This document shows, piece by piece, positions 3,345 through 52,327 of a stretch of DNA of 54,235 nucleotides. The translations under genes were made by a program, and so were the position numbers. Each line of letters starts with the position of its first letter. Within the stretch, counting starts at the first letter, position 1. Origin of the DNA: an uncultured Lachnospiraceae bacterium (GTDB taxonomy: Bacteria > Bacillota > Clostridia > Lachnospirales > Lachnospiraceae); NCBI GenBank assembly GCA_947173945.1, contig CAMWGV010000012.1, positions 1 to 54,235 of the forward strand, written 5' to 3'. The notes beneath the pieces are model-generated. The model was not told the DNA's origin. It was given only the letters and a program-made list of their open reading frames with translations, and ran no database searches.

Positions 3345-6300
3345 TTAATTTTTCCTCTTGTTTTTCATGGTCAATACCAATATACCTAAGAGAGACAACA
3401 TTCCAAGTCCAATAACACCGATTGAATTTGTGCTATCTCCTGTTACAGGACCAGCTGCTGGTGTCTCTGTAGTCGGAGCTTCCGTAGTCGGTGGCTGTAT
3501 GATTGGATCTTCTGCGGTCGATGCCTCTGTAGTCGGCTCTTCCGTTGTTGGCTCCTCCGTGGTCGGTGTCTCTGTAGTCGGTTCTTCCGTAGTTGGTTCT
3601 TCTGTAGTCGGCTTCTCCTTCGCCACATATACAGGTGTCAAAACAATAGAGCCATTTGTCGTACTGATTGTAGCACCTGCAGCATAGCTGGTGCCGGCTG
3701 CATCCTTCCATCCTTTAAAGGTAAAGCCCGTAACCGACTGCCCTGCTCTTACAGTATATACAAATTTCTTAGTATGCGTGCTTATCTGATAAACGGTTTT
3801 ACTTTCCGTACTCAGCGTTGTACCGTCCTTTTTCAGATACTTCAGCTGTCCTTGTTTTTCATACACACAGTAAACATTTAAGCCACTAGGAGAAACTGTT
3901 ACATTATCTCCTGCCTTCTTCAAAGTATCAGCAGAAGAAACAGTAGCATTCTCGTTGAGGACATACCCCACAAAGGTATTCTTTTCACCGGCATTATATG
4001 TAGCCAGTCCACGCTCTATCTCATCCTCATTGTTGTAAAAAGTAACGGCGGTTCTGTAATCCGAGGCAGCATTATATGTATGATAGCTGATATAAGCCGT
4101 CTTTTTATATATGGCATATAAGGTAATATCTTCCGTCCCTGCCGTAAGCGTAGCAAGTCCTACTTTTGCATTTTGGTTCGTATTCCAGCCGACAAACTCA
4201 TATCCCGTCTTGGAAGCGGTATAGGTTAAATCAACAGGATCTCCGTTAGGATAGCTGATTTGTGTCAGGCTTCCACCGCTAAAGGAACCACCTCCGTTTG
4301 CCGTGACATTGTAAGTCACATTGCAGTCTTCCGTGGTTGACTCCTCATATACAGGTGTCAGAACAATAGAACTTTCCATCGTACTGATTGTAGCGCCTGC
4401 AGCATAGCTGGTGCCGGCTGCATCCTTCCATCCTTTAAAGGTAAAGCCCGTAACCGACTGCCCTGCTCTTACAGTATATACAAATTTCTTAGTATGCGTG
4501 CTTATCTGATAAACGGTTTTACTTTCCGTACTCAGCGTTGTACCGTCCTTTTTCAGATAATTCAGCTGTCCTTGCTTTGAATATACACAGTAAACATCTA
4601 AGCCTTCAAGAGAAACTGTTACATTATCTCCTGCATTCATCAAATCGTCAGCAGAAGAAACATCAGCATTCTCATTGAGGACATATCCTGCAAAGGTATT
4701 ATCTCCACCAGCATTATATGTAGCCAGCCCATGCTCTATCTCATCCTCATTGTTGTAAAAGGTAACGGTGGTTTTGTAATCCGAGGCGACATCATATGTA
4801 TGATAGTTGATATCAACCGTCTTTTTATATATGGCATATAAGGTAATATCCTCTGTCTCTACCGTAAGCGTATCAAGTCCTACTTTTGCGTCTTTGTCCG
4901 TATTCCAACCAACAAACTCATAGTCCGTCTTGGAAGCGGTATAGGTTAAATCAACAGGATCTCCGTTAAGGTAGCTGATTCGCTTCCGTTTTCCATCCTT
5001 AATTTCGTCATCGCTAAGTTTTTCACCGTCAAAGGTATCGCCTCCGTTTGTCGTGACATCATAGGTCACATCATAGCCTTCTCTTAAAACAGCATATGAT
5101 TTGTCGTCGTCCTCTTCATACTTTATGACGTAACCGTCTTTTTTTGCAAACATCTGTGAGGTAATATCGGTCTTCAGTTCCGCAACCTTTCTGCCATCGT
5201 AATATCCCGCTTCGATTGTATCAAAGACTATCGTGCCGTCCAAATTTTTGAAGGTGTCCGTAAATGTATAGAACCCGGTGTCTGACCCTAAATAATACAC
5301 ACTGTCATCACTATGTAATGTTTGAGTAGTAATACGAACTGATTTATTTTCAGCGAGAGAAGGATCAAAATATATATTACCTTCTCCACCATCGGTAAGC
5401 GTTGCCTTCGAGCCTTGAAAAATTAATTGTGACCAATTCTTTTCGGAACCATCATATACATTCCAATCCTCGTTATTATAAATCTCAGAGTCAGAGTCAA
5501 GAATTGTCGTGCTTGCGGTCTCTGCTATATAAATACCTGTTTTACAGTTATGTACATCAACTGTTATGCTCGTTATGCTTCCACTGGTTTTAATACCATT
5601 GCCACATTCATATATTTCCAACCGATTTTCCCAGCCTTGCGGATATGAATAAATCCCATAGTTGGAAAGAAGACCGTCTTCTGAACATCGGCGGATAGTA
5701 TCCAATGTAGTAGTCGGGGATTGATTATCTGTATTTTTATATAAATTTTTCACTTCCATTCCGTACTTGCAATCTTCTATCAGATTATTGCCATAGGAAT
5801 AAGTATCGCTCGTTGATTTGATACCGGTTCCACAATTATATATATCCGTATCCGCAATATTCAGTCGGTTTTGAGTGTCAACTCCTATTTCACAATCATA
5901 AATCTCGGATTTTCCTTTAGCATTCACAGTCCTGTCGGAATATTTCTCCAACTTCTCATATCCGTCAGATCGTAAATGATAAGGATGATCCAGACTGTAT
6001 ATATATAATGGCGAGATAGATGTATTGGAAAAACCCGTTGTTATAGAAGGTTCACCCTTTACAACACAATTATAGAAATATGATGTACTGTTGTTATCGA
6101 AACGCATACTTACAGATGTTTTTCCACCGGTAAAGCTTGTATCATAGACAGATGTACTACCAGCACATATTAGATTTGTGTCCTTGCTTTGGTACTTACA
6201 GCTAATAATTGTCGCATTATTACTTGTGGCAGACATATCACTTCCGATGTCAAAATCATTGATATCACAATCTATCAGAAAACATGTACTACGAGCTGCA

Positions 6301-7730
6301 GTAACACCGGCAGAATCTACCGCTGAGGCTCTTGCCGTTAATGTTGTATTTACTATGGCAACCAAATCCCCTGCCATATTAATTCCTTCCTTGCAATCTG
6401 ATATCGTACAGTCCGATACTACGACCTGGCATCCATCTAATTTAATACTTGTATCAAAGCCTTTAATTATACAGCCTTTAATCTGAGGTCTCGATTTAAG
6501 GTCATAGTCGTCAGATATATAAGTGCTTTGCAAACGACTAATACCATTAAATCCGACCGTGTTGGAAGCACCCTCCCGTGCCTCCATAGTAAGATTTGAA
6601 ATTGTTGCCTTGTTATATCCCATCAAATTCTGGATGTCAACTCCGGTAATACAATCCGTAATTGCAATATCATCGATTGTGAGTGTATCAATACCAAAAC
6701 TCATGACGTTGATTCTTTCCATCTTGATTCCCGTATCAAACCCTGTAATCGTACATCCTGTAATTTCTTCTATCCCAACACCATATTGATCAATCGCAGT
6801 TATTCCTGTCTCTGAGGTGCTAAGCTCACATCCGGATATTGATTTGATAATGTAAGGGGCACCGTCGTAATCTGGCATCCCCTCTCCAAAGACGGTTCCC
6901 GTACAGTTTGTTGCCGTAATGCCAGAAAAGCTTACAGGGCATGTAGATTTAGTTTTAAATAAGAGCCCGCAGTTATCCATAATGCAATCAGAGAAGCTGA
7001 CAGGGCATACCCCACCCGTTGAATAAACGCACGGATCCGAACAACTAGAAAACTTACAGTTGGAGATAGAAATTCCATTTGCTGAACTGGATGCCTCCAC
7101 CTGAACCTTTCCATTTTTGAAGTCTACATTATCTATTGCTATGGTAGTTGCTGCCTGAACCATAAATAAAGGATAAGCACCGCCCCCTATATCTATACTG
7201 TGTCCGTTACCTAAAAGCAGGAATTTCTCTTTCGGAATAGTTAAATAAGTAGCACTAGGCAATGTGATATCAGTATTTAAAATAATTACTACCGAATTTT
7301 CATCTCCAATGTATGTTGCTCCCCATTCAGAAGCTTGCGCCCACCCACTGCCATCACTCGGTGTATGCTTAAACAGGCTGTTCCACTCGTCTTGGGAATT
7401 AATCTCAATTTTATATCCATCCTCCGGCACGTCCGGAGACGCTGCATATAACAATGCATCTCCTACCGTGGCAGCGGCATATAACAACACATCTTCTGCC
7501 GTGACAGATGAGGCATAAATATTCTCCGCATCTCCTACCGTGGCAGATGGAAGTGCGTCTGTACCTGTTGCCGCCTGAATGGTTCCTTCCACATATGTAG
7601 TATATGTAGCATCCGTATCTGTCGCACATTGCTCCGCATTTTCGGCATAAGACATAGAGCCTGGTGTATTTATAATCAACAGGCATGTACACAGTATGGA
7701 ACAACAAAGCTTTTTCAGTTTTCTTCTCAC
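3345..7730 (-). CDS. Large secreted cell-surface protein A: beta-helix, List-Bact repeats, Thr-rich stalk, xPxTG-like anchor
   Basis: This 1461-residue protein starts at GTG, with AGGAGG 8 bases upstream. Residues 1-31 form a signal peptide. A right-handed parallel beta-helix region (about 165-830) follows, seen as repeated short rungs of the type SISGCELS, ITGCTITGFDTGI and ISDCKEGI with regularly spaced Cys and Asn. Next are two copies of a module of about 240 residues. Each has a Listeria-Bacteroides/InlB-type repeat (VGWNTD, DITLYAIYKK), a linker, and a QL(N/K)YLKKDGTTLS plus GFTFKGWKDAAG repeat. A PTTEE stalk (about 1370-1425) precedes GPVTGDS, a hydrophobic helix and a KNKRKN tail, which is the layout of a sortase substrate with G in place of L. 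No catalytic motif is recognised. An adhesin or surface-binding role is inference. It has its own promoter and terminator. Confidence 0.85.
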   Translation of the reverse strand: MRRKLKKLCCSILCTCLLIINTPGSMSYAENAEQCATDTDATYTTYVEGTIQAATGTDALPSATVGDAENIYASSVTAEDVLLYAAATVGDALLYAASPDVPEDGYKIEINSQDEWNSLFKHTPSDGSGWAQASEWGATYIGDENSVVIILNTDITLPSATYLTIPKEKFLLLGNGHSIDIGGGAYPLFMVQAATTIAIDNVDFKNGKVQVEASSSANGISISNCKFSSCSDPCVYSTGGVCPVSFSDCIMDNCGLLFKTKSTCPVSFSGITATNCTGTVFGEGMPDYDGAPYIIKSISGCELSTSETGITAIDQYGVGIEEITGCTITGFDTGIKMERINVMSFGIDTLTIDDIAITDCITGVDIQNLMGYNKATISNLTMEAREGASNTVGFNGISRLQSTYISDDYDLKSRPQIKGCIIKGFDTSIKLDGCQVVVSDCTISDCKEGINMAGDLVAIVNTTLTARASAVDSAGVTAARSTCFLIDCDINDFDIGSDMSATSNNATIISCKYQSKDTNLICAGSTSVYDTSFTGGKTSVSMRFDNNSTSYFYNCVVKGEPSITTGFSNTSISPLYIYSLDHPYHLRSDGYEKLEKYSDRTVNAKGKSEIYDCEIGVDTQNRLNIADTDIYNCGTGIKSTSDTYSYGNNLIEDCKYGMEVKNLYKNTDNQSPTTTLDTIRRCSEDGLLSNYGIYSYPQGWENRLEIYECGNGIKTSGSITSITVDVHNCKTGIYIAETASTTILDSDSEIYNNEDWNVYDGSEKNWSQLIFQGSKATLTDGGEGNIYFDPSLAENKSVRITTQTLHSDDSVYYLGSDTGFYTFTDTFKNLDGTIVFDTIEAGYYDGRKVAELKTDITSQMFAKKDGYVIKYEEDDDKSYAVLREGYDVTYDVTTNGGDTFDGEKLSDDEIKDGKRKRISYLNGDPVDLTYTASKTDYEFVGWNTDKDAKVGLDTLTVETEDITLYAIYKKTVDINYHTYDVASDYKTTVTFYNNEDEIEHGLATYNAGGDNTFAGYVLNENADVSSADDLMNAGDNVTVSLEGLDVYCVYSKQGQLNYLKKDGTTLSTESKTVYQISTHTKKFVYTVRAGQSVTGFTFKGWKDAAGTSYAAGATISTMESSIVLTPVYEESTTEDCNVTYNVTANGGGSFSGGSLTQISYPNGDPVDLTYTASKTGYEFVGWNTNQNAKVGLATLTAGTEDITLYAIYKKTAYISYHTYNAASDYRTAVTFYNNEDEIERGLATYNAGEKNTFVGYVLNENATVSSADTLKKAGDNVTVSPSGLNVYCVYEKQGQLKYLKKDGTTLSTESKTVYQISTHTKKFVYTVRAGQSVTGFTFKGWKDAAGTSYAAGATISTTNGSIVLTPVYVAKEKPTTEEPTTEEPTTETPTTEEPTTEEPTTEASTAEDPIIQPPTTEAPTTETPAAGPVTGDSTNSIGVIGLGMLSLLGILVLTMKNKRKN
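3461..3615 (-). repeat. 15-bp coding tandem repeats (PTTEE stalk) in surface protein A
   Basis: The strand encodes repeated 5-residue units (PTTEE, PTTET and PTTEA variants) in periods of 15 bases, interrupted once by AEDPIIQP. About nine units are visible. The same array in the paralogue (8068-8312) is longer. Such arrays commonly change copy number by slippage or recombination. Confidence 0.85.
3627..5066 (-). repeat. Intragenic tandem duplication, 720-bp period
   Basis: Bases 3676-3839 are identical to 4396-4559, 164 bases with no difference. Similarity at the same 720-base offset extends over most of 3627-4346 against 4347-5066. The unit encodes about 240 residues of repeat module. The paralogous gene has a single, more diverged copy at about 8320-9050. 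The identity inside gene A indicates a recent duplication or gene conversion. Confidence 0.9.
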
Positions 7731-7950: not shown

Positions 7951-10900
7951 TTAATTTTTTTTCTTGTTTTTCATGGTCAATCCCAATATACCTAAGAGAG
8001 ACAACATTCCAAATCCGATAACACCGATTGGATTTGTGCTATCTCCTGTTACAGGACCGGCTGATGGTGTCTCTGTAGTCGAAGCTTCCGTAGTCGGTGG
8101 CTGTATGATTGGATCTTCTGCGGTCGATGCCTCTGTAGTCGGCTCTTCCGTTGTTGGCTCCTCCGTGGTCGGTGTCTCTGTAGTTGAATCTTCTGTAGTC
8201 GGTGTTTCTGTAGTCGGCTCCTCTGTAGTCGAATCTTCCGTGGTCGGCGGTTCTGTAGTCGGCTCTTCCGTGGTCGGCTCCTCTGTAGTTGAATCTTCTG
8301 TGGTTGGCTCCTCGTTCTCCTCATATACAGGTGTCAGAACAATAGAACTTTCCATCGTACTGATTGTAGCACCTGCGGCATAGCGGTTATCGTCTTCATC
8401 CTTCCATTCTATAAAGGTAAAGCCCGTAACCGGCTCCCCTGCTCTTACTGTATACTCAAATTCCTTATTATCTGCACATATCTGATAAACGGTTTTACTT
8501 TCTGTACTCAGAGTTGTACCATCCTTTTTCAGATACTTCAACTGTCCTTGTTTTGAATATACACAGTAAACATCTAAGCCATCAAGAGAAACTGTTACAT
8601 TATCTCCTGCCTTCAGTAAATCGTCAGCAGAAGAAACATCAGCATTCTCATTGAGGACATATCCGGCAAAGGTATTATCTCCACCGGCATTATATGTAGC
8701 CAGTCTATGCTCTATCTCCTCATCCTCATTGTTGTAAAAGGTAACGGCGGTTTTGTAATCCGAGGCAGCATCATATGTATGATAGTTGATATCAACCGTC
8801 TTTTTATATATGGCATATAAAGTAATATCCTCTGTCTCTGCCGTAAGCGTATCAAGTCCTACTTTTGCGTCTTTGTCCGTATTCCAACCAACAAACTCAT
8901 AGTCCGTCTTGGAAGCGGTATAGGTTAAATCAACAGGATCTCCCTTAAGGTAGCTGATTCGCTTCCGTTTTCCATCCTTAATTTCTTCATTGCTGAGTTT
9001 TTCACCATCAAAGGTATCGCCGCCGTTTGTCGTGACATCGTAGGTTACATCACAACCTGCTGCAAAAACAGCATATATGGAATCGTATTCACCTGGCTCA
9101 GCTAATATGACAAAGCCTTCTTTTTTTGCAAACATCTGCGAGGTAACATCGGTCTTCAGTTCGGCAACCTTTCTGCCGATTGTATATCCATCCGGAACTG
9201 TGTCAAAAACTACTGTGCCGTCCAAATTTTTGAAGGTGTCGCCAAATATATAGAATCCAGTGTCTGACCCTAAAAAATACACACTGTCATCACTATATAA
9301 TGTTTGGGTATTAATGCGAACTGATTTATTTTCAGAGGGAGAGGAACCAAAATATATATTACCTTCTCCACCACCAGTAAGCGTTGTCTCCGAGCCTTGA
9401 AAAATTAATTGTGATGAATCATTATATACATTCCATTCCTCGTTATCATAAATCTTAGACCCAGAGTCAAGAATTGCCAGGCTTGCGGTCTCTGTTGTAT
9501 AAATACCCGTTTTACAGTCATGTACATCAACTGTTACGCTCGTTATGCTTCCGCTGGTTTTAATACCGTAATTACCACATTCATATATTTCCAACCGATT
9601 TTCCCATCCTTGCGGATGTGAATAAATCGCATAGGTGGAAAGAAAACCATCTTCTGAACAATTGCGGATAGTATCCAATGTAGTAGTCGGGGATTGATTA
9701 TCTGTCTCTTTGTAAAACTGGCTCACTTCCATTCCGTACTGGCATTTTTCTATCAGATTATTGCCGTAGGAATAAGTATAGTTTGTTGATTTGATACCGG
9801 TTCCGCAATCATGTATATACGTATCCGCAATATACATTTGGTTTGGGCAGACAACTCCTATCTCACAGTAGAAAATCTCAGATTTCCTTTCATCATCCTC
9901 ATTCTTTGTTTTTTTGGAATATTCCTTCAGTTTATCATATCCGTCGGATCGGGAATGATAAGGACGAGCCAAACTGTATATGTATAATTTTGAGTTATTT
10001 CTCGCAGAAAATCCCGACGTTGTTACACCAGGCTCACCCTTTACAACACAATCATAGAAATATGAATAGCTGTAATCCATACTTACAGATGTTTTTCCGC
10101 CAATAAAGCTTGTATCATAGACGGATGTATAACCAGCACATATGAGATTTGTGTCCTTACTTTGGTAGCTGCAGTTGATAATCGTCGCATTATTTTGTGA
10201 ACCGTCCATATTACTTCCAATGTCAAAATCATTAATCTCACAATCTATTAGAAAACATGTACTACGCTCTGCAGTAACGCCGATAGAATCTGCCACCGAA
10301 GCCCTTGCCGTTAAGGTTGTGTCTACTATGGCAACCGGATTACTTGCTATTGTATTAATTCCTTCCTTGCAATCTGATATCACACAGTCCGATATATAAG
10401 CTTGGCATTGAGTTAAGTCAATACCTGTATCAAAGTTATTAATCGTACAGCCCTTTATATAAGGCATCGATTTAAGGTCATAATAATCAGCTACAGAAGC
10501 GTTCTGCAAACGATCCCAACACTTAAATCCGACCGTGTTAGAGTCATCCCGTGCCTCCATAGTAAGCTTTGAAATCATTGCTTTGTTATATCCTGACAAA
10601 TACTGGATGTCAACTCCGGTAATACAATCCGAAATTTTAATATCATCGATTTTGAGTGTATCAGTACCAGAAAGAGCAGGTATGTTGTTGATATGTGACA
10701 GATTAATTCCCGTATCAAAGCCTATAATTTTACATCCTGTAATTTCTCCTATTCCAGTAGCATACTGATCAATCGCTGTTATTCCTGTCTCTGAGGTGCT
10801 AAGCTCACATCCGGATATTGATTTGATAATGTAAGGGGAACCTTCAGATTCTGACGGCCCCTGTCCAAAGACGGTCCCCGTACAATTTGTTGCCTTAATG

Positions 10901-11907
10901 CCGGAAAAGCTTACAGAGCATGTAGACATAGATTTAAATAAGAGTCCACTCTTATCCATAATGCAATCAGAGAAGTTGACAGGGCATGGGGCACCCTTTG
11001 AATAAACGCACGGCCCTGAACATTCAGAAAAGTCACATCCGGTGATATCCGCATTTCCTGTTGCATCGCTTGTATACAATTCAACTGATGCTGAAGAAAA
11101 CTGACTGTCTGTACAGTTAAAACTCATATGACCATACACCTGTACCGTTCCGTTTTCGATGTGTGTCTGCTGCTCTATTGTTACGGTAGTTGCACCATAC
11201 ACCTGCACAGTTCCGTTTTCGATATGTGTATTTTCTATTGTTACAGTAGTTGCATTCTGCACCTGTATCGTTCCGTTTTTGATGTGTGTATTCTCTATTG
11301 TTACGGTAGTTGCTGCCTGAAACATAAATGCATATCCGCCTAAATCTATGCTGTGTCCGTTGCCGTAAAGCAGGAAATCCTTTTTAACCGACTCTATCGT
11401 AGGAATCATTAAAACAGTATCTTTAGACAATGTGATATCAGCATTTAAAATAATTACTACCGGATTTTTATCTTCGATGTATACAGCTGCCCCAGATGAA
11501 TTGGTCCAACCACTGCCATCACCCTCCGTATGGTTAAACAGGTTGTCCCAATCGTCTTGGGAATTAATCTCAATGCTATACCCTCCCTCTGGCACATCTG
11601 GAGATGCTGCATTTAACATCACATCTCCTATCGTGGCGGATGCATATAGCAACACATCTGTTGCCGTGACAGATGAAGCATAAATGTCCTCCGCATCTCC
11701 TGCCGTAGCAGATGGAAGTGCGTCTGTACCTGTTGCCGCATAGGCATTCTCTGTCACATCTGTATCTACAGTATCCGCATAGATTGCATCCGTATCTGTC
11801 GCATATTGCTCCGTGTTTTCGGCATAAGACATAGAGCCCGGTGTATTTATGATCAACAGGCATGTACACAGTATTGCACAACCAAGTTTTTTCAGTTTTC
11901 TTCTCAC
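7951..11907 (-). CDS. Large secreted cell-surface protein B, paralogue of the gene at 3345-7730
   Basis: This 1318-residue protein has the same plan as protein A. It has a GTG start behind GGGAGG, a nearly identical signal peptide, a degenerate ATAGDA-type linker and a beta-helix of short Cys/Asn-rich rungs. One Listeria-Bacteroides-type repeat module, a Thr/Glu/Pro stalk and the GPVTGDS plus helix plus basic-tail anchor follow. It differs from A in three places. Three near-identical rungs of about 20 residues (VTIENTHIENGTVQV) occur at about residues 200-258 where A has one. Only one copy of the 240-residue module is present. The stalk is longer. Long stretches are close to A at DNA level. 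It is probably exposed on the cell wall; the ligand is unknown. Confidence 0.85.
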   Translation of the reverse strand: MRRKLKKLGCAILCTCLLIINTPGSMSYAENTEQYATDTDAIYADTVDTDVTENAYAATGTDALPSATAGDAEDIYASSVTATDVLLYASATIGDVMLNAASPDVPEGGYSIEINSQDDWDNLFNHTEGDGSGWTNSSGAAVYIEDKNPVVIILNADITLSKDTVLMIPTIESVKKDFLLYGNGHSIDLGGYAFMFQAATTVTIENTHIKNGTIQVQNATTVTIENTHIENGTVQVYGATTVTIEQQTHIENGTVQVYGHMSFNCTDSQFSSASVELYTSDATGNADITGCDFSECSGPCVYSKGAPCPVNFSDCIMDKSGLLFKSMSTCSVSFSGIKATNCTGTVFGQGPSESEGSPYIIKSISGCELSTSETGITAIDQYATGIGEITGCKIIGFDTGINLSHINNIPALSGTDTLKIDDIKISDCITGVDIQYLSGYNKAMISKLTMEARDDSNTVGFKCWDRLQNASVADYYDLKSMPYIKGCTINNFDTGIDLTQCQAYISDCVISDCKEGINTIASNPVAIVDTTLTARASVADSIGVTAERSTCFLIDCEINDFDIGSNMDGSQNNATIINCSYQSKDTNLICAGYTSVYDTSFIGGKTSVSMDYSYSYFYDCVVKGEPGVTTSGFSARNNSKLYIYSLARPYHSRSDGYDKLKEYSKKTKNEDDERKSEIFYCEIGVVCPNQMYIADTYIHDCGTGIKSTNYTYSYGNNLIEKCQYGMEVSQFYKETDNQSPTTTLDTIRNCSEDGFLSTYAIYSHPQGWENRLEIYECGNYGIKTSGSITSVTVDVHDCKTGIYTTETASLAILDSGSKIYDNEEWNVYNDSSQLIFQGSETTLTGGGEGNIYFGSSPSENKSVRINTQTLYSDDSVYFLGSDTGFYIFGDTFKNLDGTVVFDTVPDGYTIGRKVAELKTDVTSQMFAKKEGFVILAEPGEYDSIYAVFAAGCDVTYDVTTNGGDTFDGEKLSNEEIKDGKRKRISYLKGDPVDLTYTASKTDYEFVGWNTDKDAKVGLDTLTAETEDITLYAIYKKTVDINYHTYDAASDYKTAVTFYNNEDEEIEHRLATYNAGGDNTFAGYVLNENADVSSADDLLKAGDNVTVSLDGLDVYCVYSKQGQLKYLKKDGTTLSTESKTVYQICADNKEFEYTVRAGEPVTGFTFIEWKDEDDNRYAAGATISTMESSIVLTPVYEENEEPTTEDSTTEEPTTEEPTTEPPTTEDSTTEEPTTETPTTEDSTTETPTTEEPTTEEPTTEASTAEDPIIQPPTTEASTTETPSAGPVTGDSTNPIGVIGFGMLSLLGILGLTMKNKKKN
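8068..8312 (-). repeat. 15-bp coding tandem repeats (PTTEE/DSTTE stalk) in surface protein B
   Basis: About fifteen 5-residue units (PTTEE, DSTTE, PTTET and PTTEP variants) are encoded with a 15-base period. The last units next to the anchor match those of protein A, including the AEDPIIQP interruption. The extra units lie on the N-terminal side. Confidence 0.85.
11131..11313 (-). repeat. Triplicated 60-63-bp beta-helix rung in surface protein B
   Basis: Three consecutive units (11131-11193, 11194-11253 and 11254-11313) are near-identical; the first carries one extra codon. Each encodes a rung of the form TTVTIE-(N/QQ)-THI-(E/K)-NGT. Protein A has only one equivalent unit at about 7098-7155, so the array expanded in B or contracted in A. 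Confidence 0.9.
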
Positions 11908-47375: not shown

Positions 47376-49919
47376 TTATAAATCATATTGATCACGAAGA
47401 CGGTTCTGTTCATCATCAATAACCTTCTGTAGCTCCCTGGATGATAAAACCATACAACTTTGTCCTCTTGTTATCTGCTGTATAAGTCCATCCGAACTTA
47501 CAACTGTTATATTATAACACGTTTGGTTCAAATTAGTAAACTTTTCTATATATTGGTCTGCTGTTTCCCCTTCTTTTGTGTGTATAACCGTTATTTCTTC
47601 CGTTGTTTTTTCAGAGCCGGGGTTATTTTTTAATTTATACCCATCAAATACGACAATTATACTGTAGTCCGTTATTCCCTTATAATTTGCCAATATAGAA
47701 ATAAGCTTGTCTTTTGCAGAATCCATATTCAGCTTTGCAAGTTCCTTCAGGTCATCCCATGCAAAAATCACATTGTATCCATCAACGATAAGCAGTCTTG
47801 GAAGCTTTGGTGTTGGTTTACCATAATGTGTTTTATATTCCGGCTCACGAATCTTTTTCTTCTGATAGCTTCTTTTTGCATTTTGGTTAGAATATGCGGT
47901 TTTATTTATTATTTCATCAATTTCATCCGTTCCTATGGAATAATCAAAATTACTCCTGCTTAACTTATAATTTTCACTGTAATCACTAATTTCTTCCCCT
48001 GAAATATCATCAGACACATGCATATATTTTTCAACCTCATACCAGGGAACTATAAAACCGGCTCCATGTGCACAAAATACAGAAGCAGACATATTATGCA
48101 GATCCGCATCAGGGTCATACCCACATTTGTCTATTATTTCATCTTGATTGTGGCATGGGAAATAGCCACTTGGAATACATGATATCGTTCCAAGTCCACG
48201 TGTATACTCGCTTATATGTTCCTGATATTTCCGAAGTGTGCTCACAGGGCCATTGCCCTTAATCGATGCATTTTCATTGTTAATAACAGGGTCCTTAATG
48301 GAGCATCCAAGCATATCAAGATCTGTCATTGCCTTACCAAGCATATCCCCTGGAAGCTCAAGTTCAAAATCATAATATGGCTCCAAAAGTATAGAGCTTG
48401 TCTTCATAAGCCCCTGCCTGACAGCTCTGTACGCAGCTTGACGAAAATCCCCACCTACAGTATGTTTATCATGTGCTTTGCCATTTATCAGTGTGATTTT
48501 AACGTCCGTAAGCGGTGAACCTGTAAGTACACCCCTGTGAAGCTTTCCTCTCAGACAGGAAATAATAAGTCTCTGCCAGTTTTTGGAAAGAATATCTGTA
48601 CTACAGTTTACATCAAACACAATACCACTTCCACGCTCTCCCGGCTCAAGTAATACATGAACCTCAGCATAATGTCTTAATGGTTCAAAATGTCCAATAC
48701 CAACTGTCTTTTCAGCAATTGTTTCCTTGTACTCAATTTGCCCCATATCATAATCTGGCCTGAAACCATACCTTGTTTCAATAATTGACGATATAATCTC
48801 AAGCTGTACGGGACCCATTATTTTTAAAATAATCTGTTTATCTTTTTCATCCCACGAAACGTCAAGCTCCGGAATTTCTTCTCCAAGAGCCACAATATCG
48901 GAGTAAATGTGTCTTGCGTCTACTCCATCCGGTACAAGCATGATATATTTTAATACAGGCTCAAGTATTGGAAGCGTCAAAACTCCCGATTCATCACCTA
49001 AAACATCACCAGCCTGTGTGTGCTCCAGACCAAGCACAGAGCATATATTTCCTGCAGACACAGTTCCAGCTGTCTCGTATTTTTCTCCGGAATAAAGACG
49101 TATCTGAGATACCTTTTCTTCACCAATGATATCCCTTACATGTAAGCTTCCTCCTGTTATTTTCATATGGGTAATACGATTTTTCTGTTCATCCCTTGAT
49201 ATTTTATATACAATTGCAGAAAAATCACTGCCATAGCATGATGACACAGCATATTTATTTATACCTGCAAGCAGACACTCAACATTTTCAAGCCTGAGTG
49301 CTGAACCGAAATAGCACGGGAAAATTTTTCTTTTTTTAATAAGCAATCTTATATCATCGTCAGAAATTATATAACCATTTAAATATTGTTCCAGAATCCC
49401 TTCATCGGACATTGCCATGCTTTCATAGTCATTTATAGTAAATTCTTCATCTGTGAAATCCATACATTCGTCACTTAGGGCATCTTTTATATTTGCAAGT
49501 ACTTCTTCCTTAATAACGTCCGGCATATCCATTTTATTTACATATATGAATACAGGTATATGGTAAGTCCTAAGAAGCTTCCATAATGTTCTTGTATGGC
49601 TCTGAACTCCCTCCGAAGCACTTATAACAAGAATTGCATAATCAAGCACCTGAAGTGTCCGCTCCATTTCGGCAGAAAAATCCACATGTCCCGGCGTATC
49701 TAGCAAAACATATTCCACATCCTTGTATGTGAACCTTGCCTGCTTTGAGAAAATGGTTATGCCTCTTTTTCTCTCAATATCATCATTATCTAAAAATGTA
49801 TTTCCTTTATCAACTCTGCCAACAGCCTTTAAAACTCCTGCACTGTAGAGAATTGCCTCAGACAATGTTGTCTTTCCAGCATCAACATGAGCTAAAATTC
49901 CTATACATAATTTTTTCAT
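47376..49919 (-). CDS. TetM-like translational GTPase fused to a Rae1/YacP-type NYN endoribonuclease domain
   Basis: In this 847-residue protein, residues 1 to about 640 match the EF-G-like ribosomal protection family. G1 is AHVDAGKT (10-17), G2 RGITI (53-57), G3 DTPGHVDF (74-81) and G4 NKMD, followed by domains up to a TetM-like C-terminus (LLEPYYDFELELPG, YTRGLG). A charged linker (about 640-708) leads to a NYN domain (709-847) with VDGYN (Asp713), VVFDGYK (Asp759), GETADQYIE (Glu785, Asp788) and SSDG (Asp810). This order matches YacP/Rae1, which cuts mRNA in the ribosomal A site. A single protein joining a ribosome-binding GTPase to an A-site nuclease is the notable feature. It is not safe to call it tetracycline resistance. 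Neighbours are trxA and a HAD hydrolase. Confidence 0.88.
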   Translation of the reverse strand: MKKLCIGILAHVDAGKTTLSEAILYSAGVLKAVGRVDKGNTFLDNDDIERKRGITIFSKQARFTYKDVEYVLLDTPGHVDFSAEMERTLQVLDYAILVISASEGVQSHTRTLWKLLRTYHIPVFIYVNKMDMPDVIKEEVLANIKDALSDECMDFTDEEFTINDYESMAMSDEGILEQYLNGYIISDDDIRLLIKKRKIFPCYFGSALRLENVECLLAGINKYAVSSCYGSDFSAIVYKISRDEQKNRITHMKITGGSLHVRDIIGEEKVSQIRLYSGEKYETAGTVSAGNICSVLGLEHTQAGDVLGDESGVLTLPILEPVLKYIMLVPDGVDARHIYSDIVALGEEIPELDVSWDEKDKQIILKIMGPVQLEIISSIIETRYGFRPDYDMGQIEYKETIAEKTVGIGHFEPLRHYAEVHVLLEPGERGSGIVFDVNCSTDILSKNWQRLIISCLRGKLHRGVLTGSPLTDVKITLINGKAHDKHTVGGDFRQAAYRAVRQGLMKTSSILLEPYYDFELELPGDMLGKAMTDLDMLGCSIKDPVINNENASIKGNGPVSTLRKYQEHISEYTRGLGTISCIPSGYFPCHNQDEIIDKCGYDPDADLHNMSASVFCAHGAGFIVPWYEVEKYMHVSDDISGEEISDYSENYKLSRSNFDYSIGTDEIDEIINKTAYSNQNAKRSYQKKKIREPEYKTHYGKPTPKLPRLLIVDGYNVIFAWDDLKELAKLNMDSAKDKLISILANYKGITDYSIIVVFDGYKLKNNPGSEKTTEEITVIHTKEGETADQYIEKFTNLNQTCYNITVVSSDGLIQQITRGQSCMVLSSRELQKVIDDEQNRLRDQYDL

Positions 49920-50680: not shown

Positions 50681-52327
50681 TTATAAAGCACCCCAGCCTA
50701 TTTCCGGATTCGGGTATGTTTTATATCCCGGTAAAGGACCGGCTTCACGTATCAGATTTGCCTTAAGCTTTTCACCATACATAAAAGGATCATTTCCCTT
50801 AACGATTCCCCACTCCATAAGCTTTGCAGCCCTTGCCGATACATAAGGTGTCGCAAAGGATGTTCCTGACACGGTAACATAACCGCCCCCCGGACTTGCC
50901 ACTTGTATATTTACACCCGGAGCTGAAACATCAGGCTTAACCTGATTATCTATGGCATAACCCCTGCCTGAAAAGGATGCATAGGATAACAGCCTTTCAT
51001 CATAGGCACCTACACTTATAACGCTTCTTGCCGATGCTGGTATTGTCATTGTCGTATATCTGGATGGTGTTATAAATCTTACATCGGAGGATGTTCCTTC
51101 CGAAACGGGAAGCCATAAATCAACCCTGCCATTTAATATTGATTTAGGATTAAAGGAAACCGTCCAGATTCCCTGTTCTATATATTCATTTTTAGGCGAT
51201 ATTGATATATACGTCTCCTGATTTTTGTTGTACGGAGTTGGGTAACCATTTATTACACTTATATCCATATCAGGCAGACTATAGCTCATAACCTCACTGT
51301 ATAAATTAAAGGGCCCCAGCACAACCCCACTCGGTGTCGTTAAAAAAATATCAACTACGTCAACAAAATCTCTCCATATCTGTAAGTTTATCCCAATCTC
51401 ATATGGATTAACCTGAAAGTCAACATACTGCCATGCCGTATTTCCAAGCATAATTTGTGCATGTCTTGCACTTCTGCCTTCATTTCCCATACCTGTAACT
51501 ATACTTATTCTTGCTGTGTCAGCAACACTGTCAATATATTCCTCAAGCATGGAATTTGAGCCATGGTCACCATAATTGTTGCCAAAACTCAAATTAATGA
51601 CCATCGGTAAATCATATTTTTGGGAAAAGCTTACCGCATAATCCAGTGCAAGTATTAAAGATATGGTATTGGGAAATCCCGATATATTACTGTTATCCAG
51701 TTTAATTGCAAGAATATCTGAGTCAGGCACATCTCTTGATATTATGCTTGCAACTCCCGTGCCATGCCCTGAATAGTCATAAGTCGGCAACCCATCTCCT
51801 GTTTTTAATGCCGTGTTTATTTCTTCTCTGGTAAAAAATCTGCCAACGCCATATTGATTTGGATGTTCTTCATCATATGGCAGTGTCTGATCCCATATTC
51901 CCACAAGCTTCGTTGTTCCATCATTATTTATAAAAGCACCCGACTTGTAATCTATCCCTGAATCGATGACAGCTGTCACAACACCTTTACCCGAAAGCCC
52001 ATCCATTTTTAAAATGGATGTTGCTGCAACCTCAAGGTAAATGCTTTTGGGCTTTTCTATAAATAAAATTGATGGAATACGTGTGAGCAGTTCTATATTT
52101 TCACTTTTAATACGGATAATTGCGTAATTATTTTGAAGAATCGTATAACTAAATCCAACGGATTTGCTTACTTCCTCCAAATCACCGGTGTATCTTATTA
52201 TAAGCTGCCATTCATCAACAGAACTGTTGTAACCAACATCTAAATCTAAAGAATTATTTCTTTCCTCCTGTGGAATCGAAAGCGACAGATTAAGCTCCGT
52301 GCCCAGTTTCGCCGGATCATAAACCAT
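50681..52327 (-). CDS. Subtilisin-like serine protease (S8 family, Csp-like)
   Basis: This 548-residue protein has an intact catalytic triad: Asp122 in AVIDSGID, His188 in YSGHGTGVAS and Ser490 in GTSFATP. An N-terminal prodomain-like part of about 100 residues precedes it. A long insert (about 285-430), which may be a jellyroll as in CspB of clostridia, lies between the His and Ser blocks. There is no signal peptide or membrane helix, so export would need another route. Csp-type proteases process germination proteins in spore formers, but this one has no spore gene next to it, so the role is open. AGGTG lies upstream of ATG. Confidence 0.87.
   Translation of the reverse strand: MVYDPAKLGTELNLSLSIPQEERNNSLDLDVGYNSSVDEWQLIIRYTGDLEEVSKSVGFSYTILQNNYAIIRIKSENIELLTRIPSILFIEKPKSIYLEVAATSILKMDGLSGKGVVTAVIDSGIDYKSGAFINNDGTTKLVGIWDQTLPYDEEHPNQYGVGRFFTREEINTALKTGDGLPTYDYSGHGTGVASIISRDVPDSDILAIKLDNSNISGFPNTISLILALDYAVSFSQKYDLPMVINLSFGNNYGDHGSNSMLEEYIDSVADTARISIVTGMGNEGRSARHAQIMLGNTAWQYVDFQVNPYEIGINLQIWRDFVDVVDIFLTTPSGVVLGPFNLYSEVMSYSLPDMDISVINGYPTPYNKNQETYISISPKNEYIEQGIWTVSFNPKSILNGRVDLWLPVSEGTSSDVRFITPSRYTTMTIPASARSVISVGAYDERLLSYASFSGRGYAIDNQVKPDVSAPGVNIQVASPGGGYVTVSGTSFATPYVSARAAKLMEWGIVKGNDPFMYGEKLKANLIREAGPLPGYKTYPNPEIGWGAL

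Follow-up and report, generated by a model that had tools for sequence, protein, structure and literature searches.

The window analysed here (the whole stretch of 54,235 nucleotides from an uncultured Lachnospiraceae bacterium) carries on its minus strand an uninterrupted open reading frame with an ATG start, whose product joins a translational GTPase to a YacP/Rae1-type nuclease domain (Table 1). The GTP_EFTU profile of Pfam matches residues 5–223 with an E-value of 3.6e-51, and domains I, II, IV and V exceed their cut-offs while the domain III profile stays below; the G1–G4 motifs and domains I–V of an EF-G/Tet-type translational GTPase are present, domain III with a sub-cut-off profile. 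Among solved structures compared by sequence, TetO (4v6v) is the best match (8.6e-75, residues 1–589), followed by TetM (3j9y, residues 1–581). The NYN_YacP profile matches residues 710–845, scoring 139.5 bits (cut-off 24.6), and the corresponding structure match is YacP/Rae1 of Bacillus subtilis (5mq8/5mq9; 3.6e-21). Both halves named in a preliminary description of this DNA are borne out, the EF-G/Tet-type body with intact G motifs by the Pfam and TetO/TetM matches and the Rae1-type NYN domain by its four acids, all of which lie at the positions claimed.

Table 1. Coordinates of the fused gene and its parts in the window
Feature	Position	Strand	Residues and characteristics	Basis
Fused translational GTPase–NYN_YacP/Rae1 protein	47376..49919	-	847 aa	ORF, Pfam, structure sequence matches
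G domain	49251..49907	-	5-223; P-loop AHVDAGKTT, DTPGH78 and NKMD intact	Pfam, alignments
EF-G domain II	48999..49223	-	233-307	Pfam
EF-G domain III	48765..48959	-	321-385	Pfam, 21.0 bits, under cut-off 27
EF-G domain IV	48399..48743	-	393-507	Pfam
Domain IV tip	48435..48485	-	479-495; at the position of the Tet Ser-Pro-Val tip	alignments
EF-G domain V (EFG_C)	48144..48389	-	511-592	Pfam
Clade-specific tail past domain V	48015..48167	-	585-635; GYxxCHN ... SVFCxHGAGxxVxW ... MH	alignments
Linker	47802..48002	-	640-706; low predicted confidence, poor conservation	alignment, AlphaFold2
Short predicted linker helix	47895..47930	-	664-675; consensus ELxxIFxRTYG	alignment, AlphaFold2
NYN_YacP/Rae1 nuclease domain	47379..47795	-	709-847; D713, N716, D759, D788, D810	Pfam, alignments

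The AlphaFold2 model of the fused protein, based on an alignment of 55 rows, has a mean pLDDT of 84.9 and a pTM of 0.62, so that it leaves the placement of the NYN domain relative to the GTPase body unfixed. In blocks of ten residues the pLDDT is 74–94 across the NYN domain and 35–54 across residues 641–700, and residues 486–489 in the tip of domain IV are below 50. The clade-specific tail is predicted to form a helix, a hairpin and a helix, and relatives without the NYN domain that were recovered in full stop at this tail or within about 15 residues of it. A zinc site made of C589, C616, H618 and H634 was considered, these residues being kept in 79–81 of 81 close sequences; it is not claimed because several of the divergent fused rows lack C616 or H618, and several NYN-less rows have Lys in place of H618. 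The linker has a mean identity to the window protein of 18%, and within it E666 and I670, which are overlapped by the predicted helix, are kept in at least 90% of the 55 rows. From H634 to the start of the NYN domain the tether measures 64–136 residues in an alignment of the window protein with related loci.

The architecture of the fusion has been in print since 2015. The accessible text of Atkinson 2015 (PMC4342817) reports, from ten clostridial species, Tet proteins that carry a YacP-like NYN domain and share the architecture found here, and it reads the fusion as possible RNase-assisted tetracycline resistance; as far as that text extends, it treats neither distribution nor origin, replacement of yacP or a catalytic comparison. 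The remark in the preliminary description that no experimental description of such a fusion was known to its author agrees with the full-text literature, most subscription papers lying beyond reach, in which no experiment on it was found. New here are the distribution of the fusion, its one fused clade, the replacement of yacP, the non-Tet identity of the GTPase and the relaxed edges of the NYN domain.

The suggestion of 2015, tetracycline resistance to which an RNase activity has been added, would suit the position of TetO and TetM as the closest solved structures to the GTPase body, the naming of some relatives as TetM/TetW/TetO/TetS family in public plasmid records (one of them fused), and the presence of two fused copies on records classed as plasmids. 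We nevertheless consider it very improbable. The best Tet model (NF012153, Tet ribosome protection) gives the window protein 429.8 bits and nine further proteins 369.8–457.6 bits (two fused, six NYN-less clade members and one distant Tet-like protein), all against a family cut-off of 775. The TetM tip Ser508-Pro509-Val510, of which Pro509 overlaps tetracycline according to the available text of two reports (PMC7456112, PMC8161019), is replaced by other letters in both the TetO alignment and the family alignment; in the clade the tip commonly reads GRAHxKHTEGGDFRQA, with exceptions such as three divergent fused proteins (L237–L239) and a protein of Ligilactobacillus salivarius. The occurrence of the fusion under 26 family codes, 79 of 80 fused genomes having a single NYN domain above the cut-off, may also speak against resistance. 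Judged by its sequence, the GTPase does not belong to the tetracycline protection proteins, since the drug-dislodging tip is absent and the curated cut-offs are failed, and the earlier label "TetM-like" does not hold as a statement of function. With TetM and TetO it shares EF-G-like domains and a similar G domain, but it differs from them in the tip of domain IV, the extra tail and the nuclease. It is also unlike EF-G, with which it has domains I–V in common and whose tip His aligns with His483 of the window protein: on the EF-G family model TIGR00484 the window protein reaches 260.9 bits against a cut-off of 659.4, and in a tree of 61 rows the GTPase clade is separate from the EF-G clade. The correction would bear on annotation, as relatives carry tetracycline resistance names in some public records and can inflate resistome counts for gut bacteria. 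The distant Tet-like GTPase (L200), which scores 453.1 bits on the Tet model, comes from a genome of the window's own family (G068).

In the alignments the catalytic core of the nuclease half is kept and its edges are relaxed. D713, D759, D788 and D810 are conserved in 81, 81, 81 and 80 of 81 sequences, namely the window and 80 loci chosen by similarity to it. In a second set with divergent members, these acids and N716 are found in all 36 fused rows, the window included; the preliminary description had made its Rae1 assignment depend on the acids being present in relatives. Like Rae1/YacP of B. subtilis (5mq8/5mq9), the window protein has the NYN core, the acids D7, D53, D81 and D104, and also N10 and Q108 (B. 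subtilis numbers). Unlike the fused domain, the B. subtilis protein stands alone, in the order rlmB-rae1-sigH (found in a B. subtilis plasmid record), and has Arg118, Arg165 and a C-terminal arm, all three of which the window protein lacks. Arg118 is kept in 17 of 32 fused rows versus 33 of 33 stand-alone rows, and 16 of the 32 fused rows end before the arm versus none of the 33; Arg165 occurs in 32 of the 33 stand-alone rows, and 21 of the 32 fused rows have a gap there. The 33 stand-alone rows come from 31 genomes (G536 and G555 are each counted twice), and in them the arm and Arg118 are near-invariant rather than established as family-defining.

The available text of PMC6613710 and PMC12320835 reports Rae1 of B. 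subtilis as an mRNA endonuclease acting in the ribosomal A site, and the former groups the suppressor R166P with loss-of-function alleles, so that Arg166 matters in that organism. We infer from the loss of the arm and of Arg118 that ribosome docking may have been handed over to the GTPase, although the same loss could instead mean a changed substrate. Four fused rows (L237, L238, L239 and L244) lie outside the NYN tree and the counts of arm and Arg118 because of a motif filter; loss of catalysis, considered for these rows, was rejected, as the acids are present and only the surrounding letters differ. Three of them, L237 and L238 (genomes G525 and G678) and L239 (G299), have changed letters in the P-loop and the domain IV tip along with intact NYN acids; here the GTPase may be drifting, with the nuclease preserved.

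How common the fusion is, a survey proposed earlier, was addressed in 391 genomes of the class. The GTPase was sought with alignment A2, which spans domain IV to the tail, and the fusion with alignment A3, which runs from domain V to the NYN domain; a Pfam NYN search was added in unclear cases. The GTPase was called in 165 genomes, 164 of them by A2 at E < 1e-60 and the last being G474, where it is cut by a contig end; the A2 matches of 81 of the 391 genomes, G474 among these, were all weaker, from 1e-24 to about 1e-32. The fusion proved common: 138 carriers have it, the window's genome included, as compared with 15 that have a separate NYN gene and nine that have no NYN domain, and the remaining carriers are two cut by contig ends and one with a frame break within the contig. 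A NYN domain thus accompanies the GTPase in 156 of the 165 carriers. The nine genomes with the GTPase and no NYN_YacP match are G326, G331, G359, G375, G477, G500, G530, G623 and G426, the last 65% complete. Contig ends concern G378 and G517 in the class sample and G095 and G256 in the family set, and the frame of the fused gene is broken in two genomes, G514 and G630 (in the latter inside the contig), so that splitting of the gene may occur. The 138 fused genomes span 26 family codes, where codes in the class sample run up to f86. With the same fusion in so many genomes, misassembly is excluded as the source of the fused gene.

A3 was positive in 257 genomes, eight of which are NYN-less GTPases matched via the tail; hence at most 249 class genomes have a NYN domain by A3, and about 92–93 of the 226 genomes without the GTPase would have one, a figure obtained by subtraction and not genome by genome. 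In the window's family NYN_YacP was found in 264 of 299 genomes, six of them with two matches. Match-level detail covers 150 matches each for this search and for the A3 class search; among the 150 family matches listed, 12 are short stand-alone frames, two are short frames at contig ends and the rest lie in frames of at least 457 amino acids. Twenty of the 35 NYN-less genomes of the family were tested, and all 20 are without the GTPase. Four family genomes (G007, G016, G020 and G068) have a stand-alone NYN gene and no GTPase of this clade.

The GTPase tree, rooted with an EF-G outgroup, places 36 fused GTPases in one clade (bootstrap 100, SH-aLRT 99) that is nested among NYN-less GTPases, which argues for one fusion event. 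The 36 rows comprise 20 of the 138 fused genomes of the class sample (the window and 19 others) and 16 other loci; 13 rows with a separate NYN gene and six without NYN all fall outside the fused clade. The remaining 118 fused, 10 of 15 separate-gene and three of nine NYN-less genomes of the class sample are not placed in the tree, and L241 (G514, broken frame) and L230 (half recovered) were left out, as was L123, the same gene as L200. It is on the GTPase tree that the probable single origin rests. In the best NYN tree the fused domains do not form one clade, three changes being needed, and by itself this tree would argue against one fusion; their grouping as one clade is not rejected (p-AU 0.27).

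In the fused genomes checked the free gene is generally gone, a point that the preliminary description had proposed to survey. Of the 137 fused genomes besides the window's, 80 were searched for a second NYN domain, and 79 have none above the cut-off (three of them have sub-threshold matches), the exception being G620; the genome of the window itself gave no NYN_YacP match other than the fused one. The nearest stand-alone relatives are the yacP genes of the window's family. At nine of 12 such loci yacP lies beside rlmB or between rlmB and sigH (not in G059, G217 and G020), most having the order cysS-mrnC-rlmB-yacP and several having sigH next. The surroundings of rlmB were read in 12 fused genomes: all 12 lack yacP there and have mrnC before rlmB, and eight have sigH directly after rlmB. 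The window's genome also has cysS-mrnC-rlmB, on a contig that stops 470 bases past rlmB. The gene we take to be mrnC is named from its position, and it had no NCBIfam match at 1e-20. Seven genomes of the window's family (G202, G024, G217, G054, G059, G161 and G242), in which the NYN gene and a complete GTPase gene are separate, at first resembled fissions of the fused gene. In five of them yacP adjoins rlmB or is flanked by rlmB and sigH (deduced from coordinates for G161), and the GTPases of all seven fall outside the fused clade; given this setting and tree position, these genomes appear to have kept the unfused arrangement.

The setting of yacP bears on a further explanation, in which the protein would mature ribosomes or process tRNA or rRNA, its GTPase working like an assembly factor and its NYN domain trimming rRNA or tRNA. 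A proposal that the NYN domain matures rRNA and tRNA is cited in the accessible part of Atkinson 2015 (PMC4342817), and the rRNA methyltransferase gene rlmB often adjoins stand-alone yacP. In none of 12 fused genomes examined, however, does the fused gene belong to the rlmB operon, and the reported activity of B. subtilis Rae1 is that of an A-site mRNA nuclease (available text of PMC6613710 and PMC12320835); we judge this explanation improbable.

It is also conceivable that the two halves do separate jobs and share a chain merely as the outcome of one ancient fusion that was followed by loss of the original yacP. The nine carriers without NYN, the 15 with a separate NYN gene, the many class genomes with NYN and no GTPase and the divergent linker would all fit such a fusion of convenience. 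Against it stand the 138 fused among 165 carriers, the absence of all 19 unfused clade members in the tree from the fused clade, the joint loss of both parts in each of the same-family genomes tested, the conserved linker motif, and the loss from the fused NYN domain of elements that stand-alone Rae1 keeps. On balance we think it unlikely, though less so than a role in maturation.

The neighbourhood of the gene offers little guidance. The window contains genes for HflX, RsmF and a pseudouridine synthase, and the preliminary description had seen in hflX and the RsmF-like gene a theme of ribosome rescue. Across 80 related loci, 56 of which have at least 4 kb downstream and some of which have incomplete flanks, hflX lies near the fused gene in five and RsmF in four, mainly in the nearest relatives; for this reason the theme is not used as evidence. 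No conserved neighbourhood was found across the 80 loci, where the commonest family within two genes on either side, an ABC ATPase type, occurs at eight. A defence system was considered and dropped, there being no PADLOC match. Two genes upstream of the fusion lies a subtilase with a CspB prodomain (50681–52327, minus strand), presumably of the spore germination protease family. Elsewhere in the window two very large frames occupy the minus strand, one of 1461 amino acids with Listeria-Bacteroides repeats (3345–7730) and one of 1318 amino acids without a Pfam match at 1e-10 (7951–11907).

Taking these data together, we favour, at roughly even chances, a model in which a ribosome-docking GTPase delivers its tethered Rae1 endonuclease to ribosomes. 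The delivery model is based on the GTPase motifs, the EF-G/Tet layout and the Rae1-like NYN core with its conserved acids, and from the A-site mRNA cleavage reported for Rae1 in the available text of PMC6613710 and PMC12320835. It draws further on the one fused GTPase clade, the fused NYN domain as sole copy in 79 of 80 genomes, the gap beside rlmB in 12 of 12, the co-occurrence of GTPase and NYN domain even when unfused, and the lack of the GTPase in 20 of 20 NYN-less family genomes; loss of the arm and Arg118 would be expected had docking been taken over by the GTPase. We count against delivery the nine GTPase-only genomes, the NYN tree, the two broken frames, the four family genomes with a stand-alone NYN gene and no GTPase of this clade, the want of conserved neighbours, the changed substrate that loss of Arg118 and the arm could mean, and the expected clash of domain IV with the Rae1 domain in a single A site.

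The recognise-remodel-cut mechanism put forward earlier is plausible, and we hold its order of events with less assurance than delivery itself. The EF-G-like body would bind ribosomes with an accessible A site, domain IV being pushed towards the decoding centre; GTP would then be hydrolysed and the GTPase body would let go; the tethered NYN domain would move into the vacated A site, or work on nearby mRNA, and cut the mRNA, upon which the ribosome could be rescued and the message destroyed. Ribosome binding, mRNA as the substrate, the sequence of steps and the physiological trigger are all inferred. Domain IV and the Rae1 domain should not fit into one A site together, in which case GTPase and nuclease must take turns or operate on separate ribosomes, and the tether is expected to have the length that would let the NYN domain follow the departing domain IV or reach a neighbouring ribosome.

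In eukaryotes, no-go decay employs Hbs1/Pelota plus a separate endonuclease. It is tempting to speculate, albeit with considerable doubt, that the fused protein is a single-chain bacterial no-go-decay machine in which the GTPase identifies stalled ribosomes, opens the A site by hydrolysing GTP and hands it to the tethered nuclease. If so, one protein would do the job of Hbs1/Pelota and the endonuclease, and across much of the gut Clostridia Rae1 would exist in no other form. The occurrence of the fusion under many family codes, with the free copy nearly always absent, points to a translational GTPase as a partner of Rae1, and Rae1 as the tail of a GTPase in many gut Clostridia hints at a route of delivery to stuck ribosomes. 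The fusion offers a one-gene system for testing Rae1 targeting.

The nine GTPase-only genomes imply that the GTPase does something even by itself, and they should be useful for finding this lone function. NYN-less GTPase relatives also occur in plasmid records of Bacilli (Ligilactobacillus, Paenibacillus). One of them, on pMP118 of L. salivarius (L257:3529-5920), is encoded next to, and divergently from, an rpsN copy without any Cys, which therefore lacks the CxxC zinc motif, and lies near a putative metal homeostasis protein; its context is possibly one of zinc limitation.
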